Under the pieces are notes generated by a model, which worked only from the letters and a program-made list of their open reading frames with translations, ran no database searches and had not been told where the DNA came from. Positions 47,860 to 63,802 of a stretch of DNA of 64,000 bases are shown one piece after another; the first letter of the stretch is position 1, and every line of letters starts with the position of its first letter. The stretch comes from Limihaloglobus sulfuriphilus. Lineage in GTDB: Bacteria; Planctomycetota; Phycisphaerae; Sedimentisphaerales; Sedimentisphaeraceae. Position numbers and translations under genes: made by a program. The stretch lies in assembly GCF_001999965.1 (NCBI RefSeq), contig NZ_CP019646.1:62001-126000 (forward strand). The letters are read 5' to 3'.

Positions 47860-48459
47860 TTAAATTCGTTTTCTGCGAATAAATAATCCGCCAATTGCCA
47901 GTATAGCTATTGCAGCCGGCTCGGGGATTTGAGTCATTACAACAGATACATCATCTATAGCAGGGCTGTTGATACCATCGATAAGGCTTTCAAAACTTAC
48001 CGTTGTTACATTGTCTGTTGCGGCGAAAACAAGCACCTGCTGGGTCCAGCCCATGTCTGCGTGTGTATAGCCGGTGGTGTCAAAATCGTACTGCTGTGAT
48101 GAGCCCGCAGCTGTAACCAGAGTCTTGGCAATTCCACCCTCGATTGCAGGATTGCCCGCATACATGAAAGTCAGCTCATATATAGCCTGTGGAATCGTGG
48201 CTATCTGCTGAGTAATCTTACCATATGTCAGGGCGTTAAGTGCCAGGCTCTGGTCGCCCGAAGCCGCAACCCATTTGTCGCTTGGGTGCGCCAGGTCAAC
48301 TGCATAGCCGTCCGGTATAACCCATCCGGGGATGTCTGTGCCTGTCAGATTGTAAGCCGTTGCTGTCACCGCCGGATCTTCAAATCCGCTGTTGACGATG
48401 AGATTTGCATTTACTGTTAATGCAAGTACCATGATTGTTGTTATAATTGTTTTACACAT
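47860..48459 (-). CDS. PEP-CTERM protein, choice-of-anchor/DUF642-like, paralogue 2
   Basis: 199 residues, nearly the same as paralogue 1 over most of its length (MCKTIITTIMVLALTVNA signal, NLIVNSGFEDPAVTATAYNL, GDQSLALNALTYGKITQQIAT, YELTFMYAGNPAIEGG). It has a PEP-CTERM tail (IPEPAAIAILAIGGLFIRRKRI). The two genes are recent tandem duplicates. Confidence 0.88.
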   Translation of the reverse strand: MCKTIITTIMVLALTVNANLIVNSGFEDPAVTATAYNLTGTDIPGWVIPDGYAVDLAHPSDKWVAASGDQSLALNALTYGKITQQIATIPQAIYELTFMYAGNPAIEGGIAKTLVTAAGSSQQYDFDTTGYTHADMGWTQQVLVFAATDNVTTVSFESLIDGINSPAIDDVSVVMTQIPEPAAIAILAIGGLFIRRKRI

Positions 48460-49703: not shown

Positions 49704-50324
49704 TTATTTTCTTTTACGTGCCAGAAGGCCGCCGACTGCAAGAACAACAAGTGTTGCCGGTTCAGGTATCTGGACAAGATTTACAGCGATATCATCAAGA
49801 GCCACACCGCATTCGCCATTATTGAGGCTTTCGAAGATCAGCCAGGTAGATTCCTTTTGAGCTGTGAAGAGCCATATCTCTTCTCTCCAGCCCATATCCT
49901 GATAGGTCCTGCCCGCGGCATCAAAATTGAACTGCTTATAGTCGATAAAAGCACCGACAGGCGCATCTGCGATTTTTGTACGCATAAGTTTCATTGTCGG
50001 CGGATAGGGTGTCGTCGGGTTTGCGGCAAGCATGAAGGATAATTCATAGGTTGCCCCCGGAACTGTTTGCAGCTCTTGGGCTATTATGCCCGGCGAACTT
50101 GCATTCAAATCCAGGCTCTGCTCGCCGGAATAAGCCGGCCACAGCTCGTTGACCAGGTCAACGCTCTGGATAACGACCCATCCGTTAATGTCAAGGCCGG
50201 GGCCGTAACGTGTGAATCCGCTTGAATTTCCCGAGGCGTCAGGTGCCTCAAAACCGCCGTTAGTTACCATTGCATTTGCGCATATTGCGCAAGCAAACAT
50301 CAAGGTTGTTAGTAATTTACACAT
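49704..50324 (-). CDS. PEP-CTERM protein, choice-of-anchor/DUF642-like, paralogue 3
   Basis: 206 residues from the ATG at 50324 (AAAGGA 8 bases upstream); an in-frame ATG 33 bases earlier overlaps that site. Signal peptide MCKLLTTLMFACAICANA, then NGGFEAPD, GEQSLDLNASSPGIIAQELQT, YELSFMLAANPTTP, FNFDAAGRTYQDMGW and ALDDIAVNLV. PEP-CTERM tail IPEPATLVVLAVGGLLARKRK. It is the most diverged of the three paralogues. Confidence 0.87.
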   Translation of the reverse strand: MCKLLTTLMFACAICANAMVTNGGFEAPDASGNSSGFTRYGPGLDINGWVVIQSVDLVNELWPAYSGEQSLDLNASSPGIIAQELQTVPGATYELSFMLAANPTTPYPPTMKLMRTKIADAPVGAFIDYKQFNFDAAGRTYQDMGWREEIWLFTAQKESTWLIFESLNNGECGVALDDIAVNLVQIPEPATLVVLAVGGLLARKRK

Positions 50325-50919
50325 CTCTTGGTTCCTTTCATCAAAGGTTCTCCTCAATTAAGCCGGATGGCACACTCTGTGCCAGACGCATTTGCCGACC
50401 TAATTAAATTTTAAATCACAAGAGTGGGGAAGACAAGAATTGACACGTACACATCTCTATCATTTCACTCACTCTCTCTCTTTTCTCTTCTATCATCACC
50501 ATAAGCATTGTATCTTTCAGGAGTCCTTTGGGTCAAGTAAAAAAAATAAATTTCTGAAAATACTCAAAACCTAAGTGTGTAAGTTCTTTTTAGAAATGAA
50601 GATGAGATTATGTTAATTTCTTTGTTTTATTGCTGTATTCTGTTTGTTTATGTGAATCTGTTTCTCGTTTTCAGTGCGTTTCTGCGCGCAAAAACGTATT
50701 AAACAGTATTGCCGCGGCGGGCTTATCTATTCATACAGACCGCAGGGGAGGATACATAGCTTTGAATAAATCCGTTTGCCGGCAAAATAAAGGCTCAAAT
50801 TTTATGTTTTTTTCTTGAAACTTGTTTTTTTATGTGTAATATTGCCAATCTTTCAGCGTATATCGAATAGATATTTTGTATGTAAACCCTTAAAGCAACT
50901 GCTTAGAAGGAGCTTAAAT
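50325..50919. other. Spacer between a PEP-CTERM gene and rpmB
   Basis: Contains the leader of paralogue 3 with a pyrimidine-rich tract (about 50450-50500). The second half is AT-rich without a supported gene; a 62-codon open frame at 50630 shows no domain or ribosome-binding site. Confidence 0.4.
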
Positions 50920-53167: not shown

Positions 53168-53216
53168 AATTAAGAATTAGGAATACTAATCCAGTAAATC
53201 CTGTAATCCTGTCAAA
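53168..53216 (+). repeat. Short repeats at the left edge of the AT-rich island
   Basis: AATTAAGAATTAGGAAT (53168-53184) recurs exactly at 58844-58860. The block 53188-53216 (AATCCAGTAAATCCTGTAAT then CCTGTCAAA) recurs with two changes at 58675-58703. A further pair, AACGGGATTGTATAAGGGCG-like (53256-53280) and 53954-53978, brackets the RhuM remnant. Confidence 0.6.
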
Positions 53217-53317
53217 GAAGTTAATTAGGAATTAAAACAGCAAGTGGACATGATTAACGGGATTGTATAAGGGCGTAGAATGGATAGAGCCCGGCAGGGC
53301 AGAGATGGAATAGAATA

Positions 53318-53632
53318 ATGCCTGAGAAAGATTTAATCACAAAGCAGAGTCAAAATATTATAATTTACACCAGCCCCGACGGCAAAGCATCGGTTGCCCT
53401 TTACGCCAAAGACGGCACCGTCTGGATGAATCAGAAGCAAATCGCAGAACTTTTTGCCACATCTGTACCCAATGTCAGTATGCATATATCTAACATATTT
53501 AAAAAGCTGGAATTAGACGAAAATTCAGTTATTAAGGATTACTTAACAACTGCCGACGACGGCATCAGGCATCAGAGCCGCGACAGTAATGGAGCGGTTA
53601 GGTTGGACGCAGAATTAGGCATCAGGCAATAG
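53318..53632 (+). pseudogene. Truncated RhuM-family gene
   Basis: The first 85 codons match the N-terminus of RhuM-like proteins (GTVWMNQKQIAELFATSVPN, then VSMHISNIFKKLELDENSVI and KDYLTTADDG), which are usually about 330 residues. After TTADDG the frame passes into repeat-like sequence and stops. The rest of the gene is absent. RhuM genes are common passengers in variable and defence regions. Confidence 0.7.
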
Positions 53633-54165: not shown

Positions 54166-55968
54166 ATGGTCAAGATCAAAGATAAACCCGCGGTAGAACG
54201 TCCAAGAGAAAGACTCCTCAAGAAAGGGCCGGATGCTCTCTCCAAGAGTGATCTTTTAGCTGTACTCTTAGGAAGTGGAATTAAAGGGAAGAATGTTCAG
54301 CAATTATCACAACATATTATAAGAAAATTCGGAGATAATTTCCTAAATATCACTGCTGCCGATTTACAGGCTATATCAGGCATTGGACAAGCAAAGGCCT
54401 TACAGATAGTCGCTGCGATATCATTGGTAAAGAGGTTTTTTAAGCCCTGCGAAGATGAAATTCAAATCATCAACAGCCAAGATGTATTAAATGTGACAAG
54501 TGAATTTAGGAATAAAAAGAAAGAGCATTTGATAAGCTTGTACCTGAATGCGAGAAATGGGCTTATTAAAAAGGAAACTATTAGTGTAGGGATCCTTGAC
54601 AAGACCTTGTTACATCCGAGAGAAATATTTAGTCCTGCAATAGAATCCAATGCCGCGAGCCTTATTCTTGTCCATAATCATCCCACAGGTGATTACGCGC
54701 CAAGCGAAAGAGACAACGTAATTATAAAAAAACTGATAGAAGCCGGGCAAATTATGGGCATACCAGTGATTGACTTTGTAATAATTTCATCAAAGGGTTG
54801 CTTTAGTTTTTTTAACAGTTCTAATAAGGTAAAGACGCTTGATTATATCGCAGAGGGGGAACTGAGGACATTATGGGATCTATTGGAAGAAGACAAAATT
54901 TCATACACAAAGAGTTTCACAGTTGCAAGTCATCACCACTTTAAGTCAGAAGAACCCCCAGATGGACACTTTAGCCTCCAAAATAGGCGTTATTTAGGGA
55001 ATAAGTACAGATTATTAGGTTTTATCGAGGATATAATAGCCGAGAAATGCGGACCAGTAGAAACCTTTTGTGATATTTTTGCGGGTACTGGCGTGGTTGG
55101 CGAAAGATTCAACGATAGAGAAATAGCAATTATATCAAACGATTTATTGTACTCAAACTATATCTGTTTGCATGCATTTTTAGGAGTTTGTTCAGATGTG
55201 TATATAGATGTTCAGAACAAAATTGAGTTATTAAACAATATTGAACCAAAAGAAGAAAATTATTTTTCTGAAAATTTTGGAGGCACATATTTTTCAAATG
55301 AAAATGCCAGAAAAATTGGCGCTATCAGGGAGCATATTGAAGTAATCTCATCTGATTCTGATGAGAAGAACATACTTCTCTGCTCTTTACTGTACGCTGC
55401 AGATAAGGTAGCGAATACAGTTGGTCATTACGATGCTTTCAGAAAAAAATTGGACATGTTGAAGCCTATAAGATTACAAATCCCTCATATTCAATACTGG
55501 AATAACCAGAACAACGAAGTATATAACGAGGATGCCAACGAACTTATAAAAAAAATATACTGTGACGTATTATACTTGGACCCTCCTTATAATTCTCGGC
55601 AGTATTCGGATGCTTATCACCTATTAGAAAATTTAGCAGAGTGGTCTATGCCGGCCGTCACTGGTTTAGCGAGAAAAATGGATCGTAAGCATATCAAAAG
55701 CGATTATTGTCAAAAAAATGCAACTTCTGCATTTGCAAACCTGATTTATAATGCCAAATGTAAACATATCTTACTCTCCTACAATAACACAGGTGAGACT
55801 AAAGACGGTCGGTCTAATGCCCGAATAGATGATAAAGACATAATGCAGATCTTAAGTGAAAGAGGCTCTGTCGAAGTGTTTGAGAAAGATTATAAGGCTT
55901 TCACAGCGGGCAAAAGTAACGATGAAAACAATGCAGAGCGAATTTTTTATTGCAAAATAAGGGGTTAA
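54166..55968 (+). CDS. RadC (JAMM)-DNA adenine methyltransferase fusion protein
   Basis: 600 residues in one open frame. Residues 1-222 are a full-length RadC/UPF0758 protein: N-terminal RERLLKKGPDALSKSDLLAV, a helix-hairpin-helix (LQAISGIGQAKALQI, 67-81), and the JAMM metal site HNHPTGDYAPSERD (His170, His172, Asp183). Residues about 270-600 are a D12-class (alpha, Dam-like) N6-adenine methyltransferase: RRYLGNKYRLLGF (274-286), SAM motif DIFAGTG (303-309), and DPPYNSRQY (472-480), in the alpha order. The gene is followed after one base by an AlwI-like endonuclease. The region is AT-rich. No clear ribosome-binding site precedes the ATG. It presumably protects one strand of the endonuclease site; the role of the RadC part is unknown. 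Confidence 0.9.
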   Translation: MVKIKDKPAVERPRERLLKKGPDALSKSDLLAVLLGSGIKGKNVQQLSQHIIRKFGDNFLNITAADLQAISGIGQAKALQIVAAISLVKRFFKPCEDEIQIINSQDVLNVTSEFRNKKKEHLISLYLNARNGLIKKETISVGILDKTLLHPREIFSPAIESNAASLILVHNHPTGDYAPSERDNVIIKKLIEAGQIMGIPVIDFVIISSKGCFSFFNSSNKVKTLDYIAEGELRTLWDLLEEDKISYTKSFTVASHHHFKSEEPPDGHFSLQNRRYLGNKYRLLGFIEDIIAEKCGPVETFCDIFAGTGVVGERFNDREIAIISNDLLYSNYICLHAFLGVCSDVYIDVQNKIELLNNIEPKEENYFSENFGGTYFSNENARKIGAIREHIEVISSDSDEKNILLCSLLYAADKVANTVGHYDAFRKKLDMLKPIRLQIPHIQYWNNQNNEVYNEDANELIKKIYCDVLYLDPPYNSRQYSDAYHLLENLAEWSMPAVTGLARKMDRKHIKSDYCQKNATSAFANLIYNAKCKHILLSYNNTGETKDGRSNARIDDKDIMQILSERGSVEVFEKDYKAFTAGKSNDENNAERIFYCKIRG

Positions 55969-55969
55969 T

Positions 55970-57790
55970 ATGAGAAAACCATGGTCAATTACTACCACTC
56001 TTAGAAATCCAAACCGGCTAAAAGATTTTTTAATGGTTTTGCATGAATTAAACGGATTAGAATGGTCAAAAGAAAACCAGATAAAGTATCAGATTCTTTT
56101 GATTAAGAATAGAATTTACGGTTACGGCAGTCCCCAATTCTATTCTGACCTGCCAAGCGAATTAGTGGATTTGATAAATGATTTGTCCAAAGATATCTCA
56201 TTTGAGAAAGCAAAAGATATCTTTCATTTGAAGCAATACAAAGATCCAGATATGCGGGGCAGACAGTCAATAAATCCTTTAAAGAAATTTGGTTTTGTTT
56301 CTATAATAAACGGGATATTAAATATAACTGAATTAGGAAAACTTTTTCTTTATGAAGAATCAGACCCTAGTGAAGTTTTTCTGAAAAGTTTTTTAAAGTG
56401 GCAGATCCCCAGCCCTGGCAGTAGAGATTACAGTTTTAATCAGGGCTATGACGTAAAGCCATTTCTAGCAACTTTGCATTTAATAAATCGTGTTAATGAA
56501 AAAGAAACTGATAAAGGTGGAAAACCAAAGGGGCTCAGCAGAAAGGAATTTTCTTTATTCGTTCCAACTTTAGTAAACCACGCAGACATTGAAGAATATG
56601 CTGAAAAAATAAGCTCTCTGAGGTCGCTAATGAATAGACTCTCTAAAGATGAACAAAAAGAAAATTTTGAGAATTATAAAAGAAAATTCATTGGTGAATT
56701 TCTGAACACCTCAGACGAATCCAATATATCCAGGGTAGTTAATAATCTTGACGATTATAGTGATAATGCTATTAGGTATTTTAGATTGACCGGCTATATT
56801 CACATTAGGGGCAATGGGTACTATGTTGATTTAGAGCCGCGCAGATCCGTGGAAATCGAATCATTGCTTGGGGCTGACAATGCGGCGGCATTTCGCTTTG
56901 AGGATACAGAAGAATATATCGGATTTATGTCAGACATTTCTCTGCCTAAGTTGCCGTGGGAGACAAGGGAAAAACACTTAAAAATAGTTAGTGTTTTGTC
57001 TGATGAGATTGTAAAACTAGAAAATGATTTAAATCAACCAAACATAGCCATAAAACAACTTTCTAAAATGTCAGATGCTAATCTAAAGGAATATATAGCA
57101 TATCTTAGAAAATATCGCCGAGAGCTGCAAGGTCAAAAAATTTATCAGGAATCGCAAAAAGTTGAGGTCATAAAGTCTTATATAAATTCATTCTCTAATA
57201 TTTACGAGATGGACAATCGTGCATTATTATTAGAAAAATTTTCAGCACTAAGTCTGAACGCATTAAATGATGCCATAAAGATTCTTCCTAATTACCCCGT
57301 GGGCGATGACAATGAACCTACAAATACTGCACCGGGGAACATGCCTGATATTGAGTGCTTTTATGAGAGTTTTAACTCAATATGCGAAGTTACTATGCTT
57401 AGAAATCGTGACCAATGGTTTAATGAGGGGCAGCCTGTTATGAGACATTTAAGGGATTTCGAAGACAAGTACCCTGATAAAAAGGCTTATTGTCTTTTCA
57501 TAGCTCCAGTAATTCATAGGGATACAAGAAATACCTTTTGGACTGCTGCTAAATATGAATACGAAGGGCGAAAGCAGAAAATAATACCATTATCTTTTGC
57601 AGATTTCATTGAAATATTAAATGTTCTACTGGGTTTAAAATTGAAAAACTCTTCTATGGCTCATACAAGTCTTGTGGAGCTATTTGAAGATATTTTAGAT
57701 TTCGTTAAGACGGGCAATGATTCCGGAGCTTGGATAAATAATATCCCGACAAAAATTCAAAATTGGAAAACGAGGCTATTGGCAGGCTGA
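55970..57790 (+). CDS. AlwI-family type IIS restriction endonuclease
   Basis: 606 residues. The N-terminus KPWSITTTLRNPNRLKDFL matches the AlwI/PleI/BstNBI family start. A likely PD-(D/E)xK-type centre is at Pro459-Asp460 and Glu473-Val-Thr475 (PDIECF then CEVT), the variant seen in that family. Family members recognise asymmetric five-base sites such as GGATC or GAGTC and cut a few bases away; the exact site cannot be read from sequence. It lies between two methyltransferase genes, overlapping the second by one base. AGGGG lies 6 bases before the ATG. Confidence 0.8.
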   Translation: MRKPWSITTTLRNPNRLKDFLMVLHELNGLEWSKENQIKYQILLIKNRIYGYGSPQFYSDLPSELVDLINDLSKDISFEKAKDIFHLKQYKDPDMRGRQSINPLKKFGFVSIINGILNITELGKLFLYEESDPSEVFLKSFLKWQIPSPGSRDYSFNQGYDVKPFLATLHLINRVNEKETDKGGKPKGLSRKEFSLFVPTLVNHADIEEYAEKISSLRSLMNRLSKDEQKENFENYKRKFIGEFLNTSDESNISRVVNNLDDYSDNAIRYFRLTGYIHIRGNGYYVDLEPRRSVEIESLLGADNAAAFRFEDTEEYIGFMSDISLPKLPWETREKHLKIVSVLSDEIVKLENDLNQPNIAIKQLSKMSDANLKEYIAYLRKYRRELQGQKIYQESQKVEVIKSYINSFSNIYEMDNRALLLEKFSALSLNALNDAIKILPNYPVGDDNEPTNTAPGNMPDIECFYESFNSICEVTMLRNRDQWFNEGQPVMRHLRDFEDKYPDKKAYCLFIAPVIHRDTRNTFWTAAKYEYEGRKQKIIPLSFADFIEILNVLLGLKLKNSSMAHTSLVELFEDILDFVKTGNDSGAWINNIPTKIQNWKTRLLAG

Positions 57791-58578
57791 TGAAAACAAA
57801 TACATTATATCATGGAGACTGCGTCATTATTTTAAATCAGGAAGTCGATCCCTCGAGTGTAGATTTGATATTTGCTGATCCTCCTTATAATTTGTCTGGT
57901 AATGGTTTAAGTTGGAAGGGTAATAAAACCGGAGGGGACTGGTACATGGTGAATGAGAGTTGGGACAAGATGTCTGAACCGGAATATATGTCATTTACCA
58001 GAGATTGGATATCTGCTTGTGACAGGGTATTGAAAGACACAGGATCTATATTTGTAGCTTGTAGTTACCATAATATCAGTGAAGTAATGATAGTGCTTAA
58101 GCAGTTAGAATACAAAATAAATAACATAATAACCTGGTACAAAACCAATTCTATGCCAAATATGACAAAGCGTGTTTTTACTCATTCAACAGAATTTGTC
58201 GTTTGGGCAGCCAAGGGTAGTGGGTGGACTTTTAATTACGATAAGTTGAAAGAGATTAACCCAAACAAACAAAAAAATGGACACTCTAAACAAATGCGAG
58301 ATCTTTGGGAAATGCCCTTGGTGCAAGGAAAGGAGCGTATCAGAGGCAAAGATGGGAGGGCTGTACATCCCACTCAAAAACCAGAAGAAATGCTAAAGAG
58401 AATCATTCTTGGGTGTTCTAAAGAAAAAGATTTAATACTTGATCCCTTTTTAGGTAGTGGAACAACAACCTATGTTGCAGGTGTTTATGGCCGCAAGTGG
58501 ATAGGAATAGAGAAAGATGCTGATTATATCAAAGTTGCTCAAAATAGGATGAATAGTATATCACAGTATTCAGATTAG
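57790..58578 (+). CDS. DNA adenine methyltransferase, beta class
   Basis: 262 residues from the ATG at 57790 inside the stop of the endonuclease gene; a frame nine codons longer exists but runs into that gene. Motif IV DPPYNLSGNG comes first (near 30-40) and the SAM motif DPFLGSGTT comes last (near 220-230), which is the beta order. Other family blocks: HPTQKPEEML and GIEKDADYI. With the fused methyltransferase it would protect the two strands of an asymmetric site. Confidence 0.92.
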   Translation: MKTNTLYHGDCVIILNQEVDPSSVDLIFADPPYNLSGNGLSWKGNKTGGDWYMVNESWDKMSEPEYMSFTRDWISACDRVLKDTGSIFVACSYHNISEVMIVLKQLEYKINNIITWYKTNSMPNMTKRVFTHSTEFVVWAAKGSGWTFNYDKLKEINPNKQKNGHSKQMRDLWEMPLVQGKERIRGKDGRAVHPTQKPEEMLKRIILGCSKEKDLILDPFLGSGTTTYVAGVYGRKWIGIEKDADYIKVAQNRMNSISQYSD

Positions 58579-58919
58579 TAGTAGTTGATGCAGTAACTAG
58601 AGTAAACACTGGAATAAGACGGATTGAGCAGCAGACAGGAACCCGCTCGTAACTGATGCCAATAAGGTTACAAAAATCCAGTAAATCCAGTAATCCTGTC
58701 AAAAAAATATTATTCTGGGGTTGAGGTTTGCACGCTAAAGCGTGTACTCTTTCGGTGTTAGTAAGAGTTCAAGCTTCAGCTTGTTTGAAATATAGATAGC
58801 GTATAAGCACGCTAAAGCGTGTACTCTTGCGGAGTTAATTAGGAATTAAGAATTAGGAATTGGGAAGAAATAATCTGCGAACATCTGCGTAATCTGCGGA
58901 TTGGAAAACGACGATAACA
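58579..58919. repeat. Repeat cluster at the right edge of the AT-rich island
   Basis: Holds the second copy of the block found after gatA (58675-58703). A 26-base repeat GCACGCTAAAGCGTGTACTC... occurs at 58730-58755 and 58807-58832, each with a CACGCTaAAGCGTG palindrome. A further hairpin CAAGCTTCAGCTTG lies between them, and AATTAAGAATTAGGAAT is at 58844-58860. Also ATCTGCGTAATCTGCGGAT-type sequence near 58880. No gene is seen. Confidence 0.65.
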
Positions 58920-61210: not shown

Positions 61211-63802
61211 ATGAAATTTGACAAATTCACAATAAAAGTTCAGGAAGCATTGGCAACCGCTCAGCAGACGGCTATGTCCCGTTCCAACACGACACTTACG
61301 CCGCTGCATCTGCTGTATGCGGTTCTAAACGATAACGACAGTATCGCCGTTGATATCGTCAAACGCTCCGGCTCTAATCTTGAGCGGCTGCGTAAGATGG
61401 TTGATTCGGAGCTGGATAAACTCCCGACCGGCTCCGGCGGGCAGATAATGCCGGATCCGGCGTTCAATCAGGTTGTGCTCGACGCTCAAAACCGCGCCGA
61501 CAAGATGGGTGATGAGTACCTCAGCGTTGAGCATCTCTTTATTTCGCTGGCATCTGTAAAAAGCAGCGCCAAGGACGTGCTGGATATCAACTCGATAAAT
61601 CCCGATCTGATACTTGCCACGCTGAAGCAAATCCGCGGCAACCGCAAGGTGACCGATGACAGCCCCGAATCCAGCATGAACGCGCTGGAGAAATACGGGA
61701 TTGACCTGATCAACCTTGCCCGCAGGGGTAAACTTGACCCGGTAATCGGCCGCGATGAGGAGATCCGCCGCTGTATGCAGGTTCTCAGCCGCCGCACCAA
61801 GAACAATCCCGTTCTGATCGGCGAGCCGGGCGTGGGTAAAACCGCCATTGTAGAGGGGCTGGCGCAGCGTATTGTTGCCGGCGACGTTCCCAGCGGATTG
61901 AAGGATAAACGCGTAATAGCACTGGATATGGGTTCTCTGATAGCCGGCACAAAATTCCGCGGCGAGTTCGAGAACCGTTTTAAGGCGGTACTCAAAGAGG
62001 TAATCGACAGCGGCGGGCAGATTGTGCTCTTTATCGATGAGCTGCATACTATCGTAGGTGCGGGCAAGGCCGAGGGTGCCGTTGACGCGGGCAACCTGCT
62101 CAAGCCAAGCCTGGCTCGCGGGGAGCTGCGGTGCATTGGCGCCACTACTATCGACGAGTACAGGAAATACATAGAAAAAGACGCGGCACTTGAGCGGCGT
62201 TTCCAGCCTATAACGATTGATCAGCCCGGCATCGAGGAGACAATCGCGATCCTCCGCGGGCTCAAGGAAAAATACGACACCCATCACGGCGTGCGTATCA
62301 GCGATTCTGCGCTTGTCGCGGCGGCAACACTTTCTGACAGGTATATCTCTGACCGTTTTCAGCCGGATAAGGCTATTGACCTGATTGACGAGGCCGCTTC
62401 ACGCCTTCGTATCGAAAACGATTCTATGCCCTCCGAGCTCGACGCTTTGCGGCGTAAGATTATGCAGCTCCAGATTGAGCGTGAGGCACTTAAAAAAGAA
62501 ACAGACGATGCCAGCCGAAAACAGCTTGAGAATACTTTAAAACAGCTTGAGAAGCTGGAAAAAGAAAACGATAAAATGACCGGCCAGTGGGAAAATGAAA
62601 AATCCCGTATCGGTAATGTCAAAGAGATAAAAGAGAAAATATCCGAGGCGCATAATGAGCTGGAAGAGGCGCAGAGGTCCGGTCAGCTTGAAACCGCCGC
62701 GAGAATCAAGTACGGCACACTCCACGAGCTTGAGGAAGAGCTCAAAAAAGCCGAGAAAATGCTCACCGAAGGCGGCGATATGCAGATGGTTCACAACGAG
62801 GTTACCGCCGAGCTGGTGGCCGAGGTTGTCTCCAAATGGACAAACATACCGGTTTCCAGGCTGCTCAGCGCGGAACGCGAAAAACTCGTGCATATGGAAG
62901 ATTACCTTTCAAAGAAGGTCATTGGCCAGAACGAGGCGGTTATCGCCCTTTCCAACGCAGTGCGGAGAAACCGAGCCGGCCTTAGCGATCCTAACAGGCC
63001 GATAGGCGTATTCCTGTTTCTCGGGCCGACCGGCGTGGGCAAGACCGAGCTTTCAAAGGCACTGGCGGAGTTTCTCTTTAACGATCCAAACGCCATGGTG
63101 CGTATCGATATGAGTGAATTCATGGAGCAGCACTCTGTTGCCCGTCTTATCGGCTCGCCTCCGGGGTATGTCGGCTATGAAGAGGGCGGCAGGCTCACCG
63201 AGGCGATCCGGAGAAAACCGTATTCGGTTGTTCTGCTCGATGAGGTTGAAAAAGCGCACCGCGACGTGTTTAATGTCATGCTGCAGGTCTTCGATGACGG
63301 CAGGCTCACAGACGGCAAGGGCAGGACGGTTGATTTCCGCAATACCGTTATCATAATGACCAGCAACCTCGCCGGCGAAGAGATACGCAAGTTCACCGAC
63401 GACGAAGGCGCAGACTGGGAGATCGAGGCTCACGTAAAGGATATTCTGAGCAGATTCTTCCGGCCGGAGTTTCTCAACCGCGTTGACGAATCAATCGTGT
63501 TCAAGGTACTCACGCGTGAGAATCTGCATAAGATTGTTGATATACAGCTTGCTTATCTTGCAGAGAGGGTTAAATCCCGCGGCATGAAAATCCGTTTTAC
63601 CGACAGTGCCCGGGACAAGATACTTGATGAGGGCTACGACCCGGTATTTGGAGCAAGGCCGCTCAAGAGGGCAATCCAGAACCGCATTGAGAATCCCCTT
63701 GCAGCCGAGATGCTGGCAGGGAAATTCTCAGAGGGAGATTCAATCTTGTGCGATGCGAAAGCACATTCGTTTGTGTTCACCAAAGACGTTGAAACAGAAT
63801 AA
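61211..63802 (+). CDS. clpB: ATP-dependent chaperone ClpB
   Basis: 863 residues, full length. N-terminal Clp repeat domain (to about 145), AAA-1 with Walker [10 protein letters not shown], Walker B FIDELHT, a coiled-coil M domain (about 410-530), AAA-2 with Walker [10 protein letters not shown], and the C-terminal domain. No ClpP-binding tripeptide loop is seen, as expected for ClpB. It rescues aggregated proteins with DnaK. It is preceded by a sigma-54 type promoter. Confidence 0.97.

Follow-up and report, generated by a model that had tools for sequence, protein, structure and literature searches.

M.SsoII is a modification methyltransferase that carries an N-terminal helix-turn-helix (HTH) autoregulator, and in enzymes of this kind the accessory domain precedes the catalytic domain. 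Standalone RadC proteins (UPF0758 family), for which the structure 2qlc has been solved, are composed of two domains with a JAMM signature. No settled activity of RadC was found in the literature searched, and its role in repair is disputed, as summarized in PMC5512222. In that paper, RadC and adenine methylases are listed among the domains of multidomain polyvalent proteins of phages and plasmids, and RadC joined to a restriction-modification (R-M) methyltransferase is not among the architectures given there. R-M systems of the AlwI family (AlwI, PleI, MlyI, BstNBI, and BspD6I) place a type IIS endonuclease beside two methyltransferases, one per strand (PMC9799307). The window of this study, i.e., the whole 64,000-nucleotide stretch of the Limihaloglobus sulfuriphilus contig NZ_CP019646.1 from position 62,001 to 126,000, shares with them an AlwI-family endonuclease and two methyltransferases; however, its first methyltransferase (M1) has RadC in place of an MerR-like HTH or a bare N-terminus. 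The accessory domain stands where the autoregulator of other methyltransferases stands, but RadC is not an HTH regulator. We class the system as type II R-M with a portable N-terminal module of an unusual kind. The sequence-only reading knew of no described case of RadC joined to a methyltransferase, and we also found no description of RadC on an R-M methyltransferase in the literature searched, which left REBASE and most subscription papers outside. The nearest relatives are the polyvalent proteins (PMC5512222), which are large, are borne by phages or plasmids, and contain other methylases, whereas the fusion enzyme has two domains and is encoded in a type II operon.

The fusion gene (54166-55968, + strand) is a single unbroken frame of 600 codons that encodes 600 amino acids, with a complete RadC at residues 1 to 217, a linker of about 50 residues, and M1 at residues 269 to 598. 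The RadC part consists of the helix-hairpin-helix (HhH) domain UPF0758_N (residues 4 to 78; 54175..54399; Pfam PF20582, 78 bits) and the JAB/JAMM domain (residues 103 to 216; 54472..54813; PF04002, 121.6 bits), both of which score above the curated cut-offs, and as a whole it reaches 206 bits against the NCBIfam RadC equivalog, with a cut-off of 180. The JAMM metal site, H170-x-H172...S180..D183, in which the two histidines belong to an HNHP sequence (H170-N-H172-P), is located at 54673..54714, and the fourth ligand, E137, is encoded at 54574-54576; the signature (E, HxH, S, D) is therefore complete. The linker (residues 218 to 268; 54817..54969) is poorly conserved except for a short motif, which here reads LRTLW (residues 233 to 237; 54862..54876) and is a degenerate version of the tail motif YVADGxQxxLFD. 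M1 (54970..55959) is an alpha-class (D12) N6-adenine methyltransferase with a Dam fold, in which the MethyltransfD12 domain spans residues 276 to 529 (PF02086, 120.2 bits), FAGTG (residues 305 to 309) precedes DPPY (residues 472 to 475), and the score against PADLOC MTase_II is 376 bits. The AlphaFold model of the fusion (mean pLDDT = 75) resembles the solved RadC 2qlc together with E. coli Dam, and Foldseek returned 2qlc as the best structural match of the RadC part (TM = 0.89 on target). Residues 229 to 260 are modeled with very low confidence (pLDDT < 50), as would be the case for a flexible tether. The initial claim of an intact RadC joined in-frame to a Dam-like methyltransferase is borne out by the 600-codon frame, the Pfam and NCBIfam scores, and the FAGTG and DPPY motifs; neither a frameshift nor a stop is present between the two parts in the window sequence, and every ligand of the metal site (E137, H170, H172, S180, and D183) is in place.

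The fusion is the first gene of a tight, low-GC operon on the + strand. The start codon of the endonuclease gene (55970..57790; 606 amino acids) lies one base after the fusion stop, and that of the second methyltransferase, M2 (57790..58578), overlaps the endonuclease stop. The endonuclease belongs to the AlwI/BspD6I family (Pfam RE_AlwI, 281.8 bits), contains a PDIE(x9)CEVT motif (57344-57394), and aligns over residues 92 to 556 with its homolog N.BspD6I (2ewf; E = 4e-38), by which it is related to the nicking endonucleases N.BspD6I and BstNBI. M2 is a beta-class methyltransferase (N6_N4_Mtase, 200 bits) that resembles CcrM, although its 259 bits against the NCBIfam CcrM-like model fall under the equivalog cut-off, and the operon thus contains a D12 enzyme and a CcrM-like enzyme. 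GCATC was considered as the recognition site, as given for PbaD1IIIP of a Phycisphaerae strain (PMC9799307), and was rejected because nothing ties that enzyme to the one in the window. The G+C content of the island is 35 to 38%, compared with 48 to 53% in the flanks, and the island is bracketed by 32-bp direct repeats (53188..53219 and 58675..58706, both + strand) that are 94% identical to each other; at two or fewer mismatches, the genome contains no more than five copies of the repeat, including the bracketing pair. The low G+C content and the bracketing repeats are consistent with horizontal acquisition of the island. Just upstream of the R-M genes, a 104-amino-acid fragment (53318-53632, + strand) matches the PADLOC candidate-defence profiles PDC-S05/S23; it covers only the N-terminal 90 or so of 330 to 346 profile positions and is probably a truncated gene.

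With an aligned set of M1-family methyltransferases as the query, a scan through one genome per species found at least 37 full-length RadC-methyltransferase fusions besides that of the window, with 47 to 66% identity, and several more that are interrupted by contig ends or frameshifts. The fusion is consequently not the rare assembly artefact that had been named as the outcome that would overturn the first reading. Among the matches listed, an AlwI-family endonuclease gene, whose adjacency that reading had proposed to count, lies downstream of 35 of 37 full-length fusions, and of the other two, one reaches the end of its contig. By record title, the carriers belong to Patescibacteria lineages, Omnitrophota, Atribacteria, Nitrospirae, Ignavibacteriales, Gammaproteobacteria, Clostridia, and Margulisiibacteriota, as well as to archaeal bins of Woesearchaeota, Thermoplasmatota, and Altiarchaeales; the records are mostly metagenome bins, so single labels may be wrong, and several of the contigs are 150 to 608 kb long. 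The fusion is rare in random samples: it was found in 3 of 333 genomes of one phylum (that of L073, the query's own genome included) and in 3 of 237 sampled genomes of another (that of L066), two of which were known already. The sampled genomes of the window's own phylum and class gave no second full fusion. Plasmid and phage records and viral-contig scans gave no full-length fusion, which separates it from polyvalent proteins encoded by phages or conjugative elements, and the Gram-positive AlwI plasmids, which have tandem or single D12 methyltransferases, contained no RadC.

The fused RadC is conserved, and its clade is distinct from the standalone RadCs sampled. In an alignment of 38 fusions that includes the window, H170, H172, and D183 are invariant, and S180 and E137 are each retained in 37; JAB columns average 77%, compared with metal ligands that are kept in at least 37 of the 38. 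The GIGQAKALQ hairpin is nearly invariant as well. Strong purifying selection acts on the RadC part, whose dN/dS ratio is 0.02 to 0.11 for close pairs, similar to that of the methyltransferase part. Although the fused RadC shares its domains and JAMM signature with standalone RadC, it is covalently joined to a methyltransferase, has the added YVADGxQxxLFD tail, and forms one clade apart from the 24 standalone planctomycete RadCs sampled (support 100/99). In profile searches the fused RadCs score 392 to 441 bits, with alignments that run to the end of the tail, versus 261 bits or less for standalone RadCs, and the standalone RadCs inspected end without this tail. A separate standalone RadC with 27 to 41% identity is also present in 8 of the 15 fusion-bearing genomes searched. 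In the L. sulfuriphilus genome, the only other RadC-like gene found is a JAB-only copy of 137 amino acids (L148 2859-3272; ~2.312 Mb), near a tyrosine recombinase gene and a transposase-like gene.

The QxxLF core of the tail directly follows RadC in 41 of 44 RadC-bearing proteins, compared with 0.96 expected from shuffled linkers, a count made over mostly homologous and hence not independent proteins; it was also found in 9 of the 54 other proteins examined. The consensus of the bacterial sliding-clamp motif is QL[SD]LF. The tail resembles it and is a putative sliding-clamp-binding motif, although G, T, or H frequently takes the place of L at position 2. Canonical QLSLF, QLELF, and QLPLF are found in relatives whose N-termini are MerR-like or LexA. 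The window fusion has LRTLW at this position, and since its motif is degenerate, the L. sulfuriphilus copy may bind the clamp weakly or have lost this ability.

Two R-M backbones bear the fusion. Type A, that of the window, consists of RadC-M1, a BspD6I-like endonuclease of about 605 amino acids, and a beta-class M2, while type B consists of RadC-M1, a D12 M2 of 301 amino acids, and an AlwI-family endonuclease of about 505 amino acids that is only ~25% identical to that of the window. Directly downstream of one type B operon, a 389-amino-acid gene (L073 9246-10415), SIR2-like by eye, is possibly a defence neighbor. Types A and B are intermingled within the fused clade in the RadC tree, whereas the methyltransferase tree splits them, and a topology that holds the type B RadCs together was rejected (AU p = 0.0004). 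Between L070 (type A) and L092 (type B), the RadC DNA is ~90% identical, compared with ~58% in the methyltransferase just past the RadC end, which shows a recent swap with its breakpoint just after RadC. In a Patescibacteria genome (L249), a RadC module with the tail QSSLF is joined to a C5-cytosine methyltransferase that is followed by an HpaII endonuclease (RE_HpaII, 363 bits). This system shares the C5 methyltransferase and the endonuclease with HpaII-type C5 systems and differs from them in the RadC module at the methyltransferase N-terminus. The locus (L249 4747-9774) further contains a 472-amino-acid gene with no Pfam match and a Dam-like methyltransferase gene, and a serine recombinase gene adjoins it. 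The placement of the fusion in type IIS R-M, as first proposed, thus holds for the AlwI-family operon of the window but is too narrow for the module, which an HpaII-type system bears too. These alignments and trees show that RadC plus tail behaves as a portable N-terminal module and has been exchanged among R-M backbones of differing chemistry. Because the module serves differing endonucleases and methylation chemistries, its role should concern something common to R-M systems; candidate needs that such unrelated systems share are to methylate new or repaired DNA ahead of cleavage by the endonuclease and to control expression.

The N-terminus of M1 was also compared among unfused members of the family. 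Some relatives have an MerR-like HTH (a weak Pfam match), and others have no extra domain. XRE HTH (HTH_3, 53 bits) is found in L099, the RadC HhH part alone in L105 (a weak match of 17.9 bits, below the cut-off), and a degenerate JAB without HNHP in L090. A full LexA with its S24 peptidase occupies this position in L106 (4605-6293) and L250 (2892-4583), the latter in an otherwise window-like operon, with the AAG cleavage site and the Ser and Lys motifs intact in both; LexA is truncated in L108 and probably in L110. The M1 N-terminus is evidently a swappable slot for RadC, LexA, XRE, or MerR-like domains. The earlier idea that RadC regulates or targets its partner fits this slot and the conserved linker motif.

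Our preferred reading, held tentatively and at somewhat less than even chances, is that RadC directs the methyltransferase to DNA that is replicating or repaired, which would let the host escape its own endonuclease. The HhH/RadC part would bind unusual DNA, i.e., forks, gaps, and recombination intermediates, the QxxLF tail would bind the sliding clamp, and new or repaired sites that are still unmethylated would be methylated ahead of cutting by the endonuclease of the system; the JAMM site would probably carry out a step on the DNA or on a partner protein there. The occurrence in the same slot of LexA, an SOS regulator with its processing motifs intact, argues for such targeting. On the other hand, clamp binding is deduced from a five-residue motif that is missing from the window copy, the archaeal-bin copies have the bacterial-looking tail motif and no PCNA box, and most related M1 enzymes are without RadC and evidently work. 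A fusion of neighboring genes by chance, or an assembly artefact, would be suggested by rarity alone, as the same-phylum and same-class samples, plasmids, and phages yielded no other full fusion; it was rejected as next to impossible, since dozens of homologs share the fusion, purifying selection is strong, the active site is invariant, and the module has moved between backbones repeatedly, which together refute it.

Protease control and transcriptional control are serious rivals of targeting. The intact JAMM signature would suit a regulatory metalloprotease whose substrate is the endonuclease, a host regulator, or its own fusion protein and which thereby sets the restriction/modification ratio, and an autoprotease, LexA-S24 with an intact cleavage site, fills the same slot in relatives. 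However, the RadC clade is argued to be directed to nucleic acids and to have no ubiquitin-tail groove (PMC5512222 and PMC3482391), and the module adjoins unrelated endonucleases (AlwI type and HpaII), so that no single endonuclease substrate is obvious. We consider proteolysis unlikely, and we give the same low weight to transcriptional regulation, in which the RadC part would set expression by binding to the promoter of the operon or to DNA of unusual structure. DNA-binding regulators (MerR-like, XRE, and LexA) are indeed among the other occupants of the slot, but no LexA box, shared operator, or shared palindrome was found upstream, and DNA binding by HhH domains is usually not sequence-specific. 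Less probable still is that RadC acts as a nuclease or DNA-processing enzyme that aids restriction or repairs the breaks made by the endonuclease. On the basis of domain contexts, nuclease activity has been suggested for the RadC JAB clade (PMC3482391 and PMC5512222), but no DNA-cleaving RadC is reported in the literature searched, as far as the texts were available, and the joining of RadC to the methyltransferase and not to the endonuclease favors a protective role. Returning to targeting, its bolder extension, that RadC is at heart a director of enzymes to replicating or repaired DNA, captured with a clamp tail by R-M systems as an interchangeable self-protection module, with LexA serving the same damage-linked end in sister systems, is doubtful.

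RadC is widespread, and a natural fusion to a methyltransferase, for which methylation at defined sites is a simple assay, offers a direct handle on its function, the more so as the fusion is strongly selected and swapped between unrelated R-M systems. That LexA, XRE, and MerR-like domains can also fill the slot suggests a coupling of modification to replication, DNA damage, or expression state in R-M systems by way of an exchangeable N-terminal module, which is relevant to how a host tolerates the restriction enzymes it makes. If RadC is a director of enzymes, the fusions would reveal its long-sought function, along with a layer of control that applies to restriction in general.

Elsewhere in the window, two genes on the - strand (47860-48459 and 49704-50357) encode two small paralogs, each with a signal-like sequence at the N-terminus and a PEP-CTERM-like sorting tail at the C-terminus. 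The same genome contains a second R-M-like cluster (L147 4116-8485; contig ~950-954 kb), with two D12-like methyltransferases and a 443-amino-acid ORF that is a possible endonuclease, and an IS30-type transposase gene that lies directly after this cluster may have truncated it.
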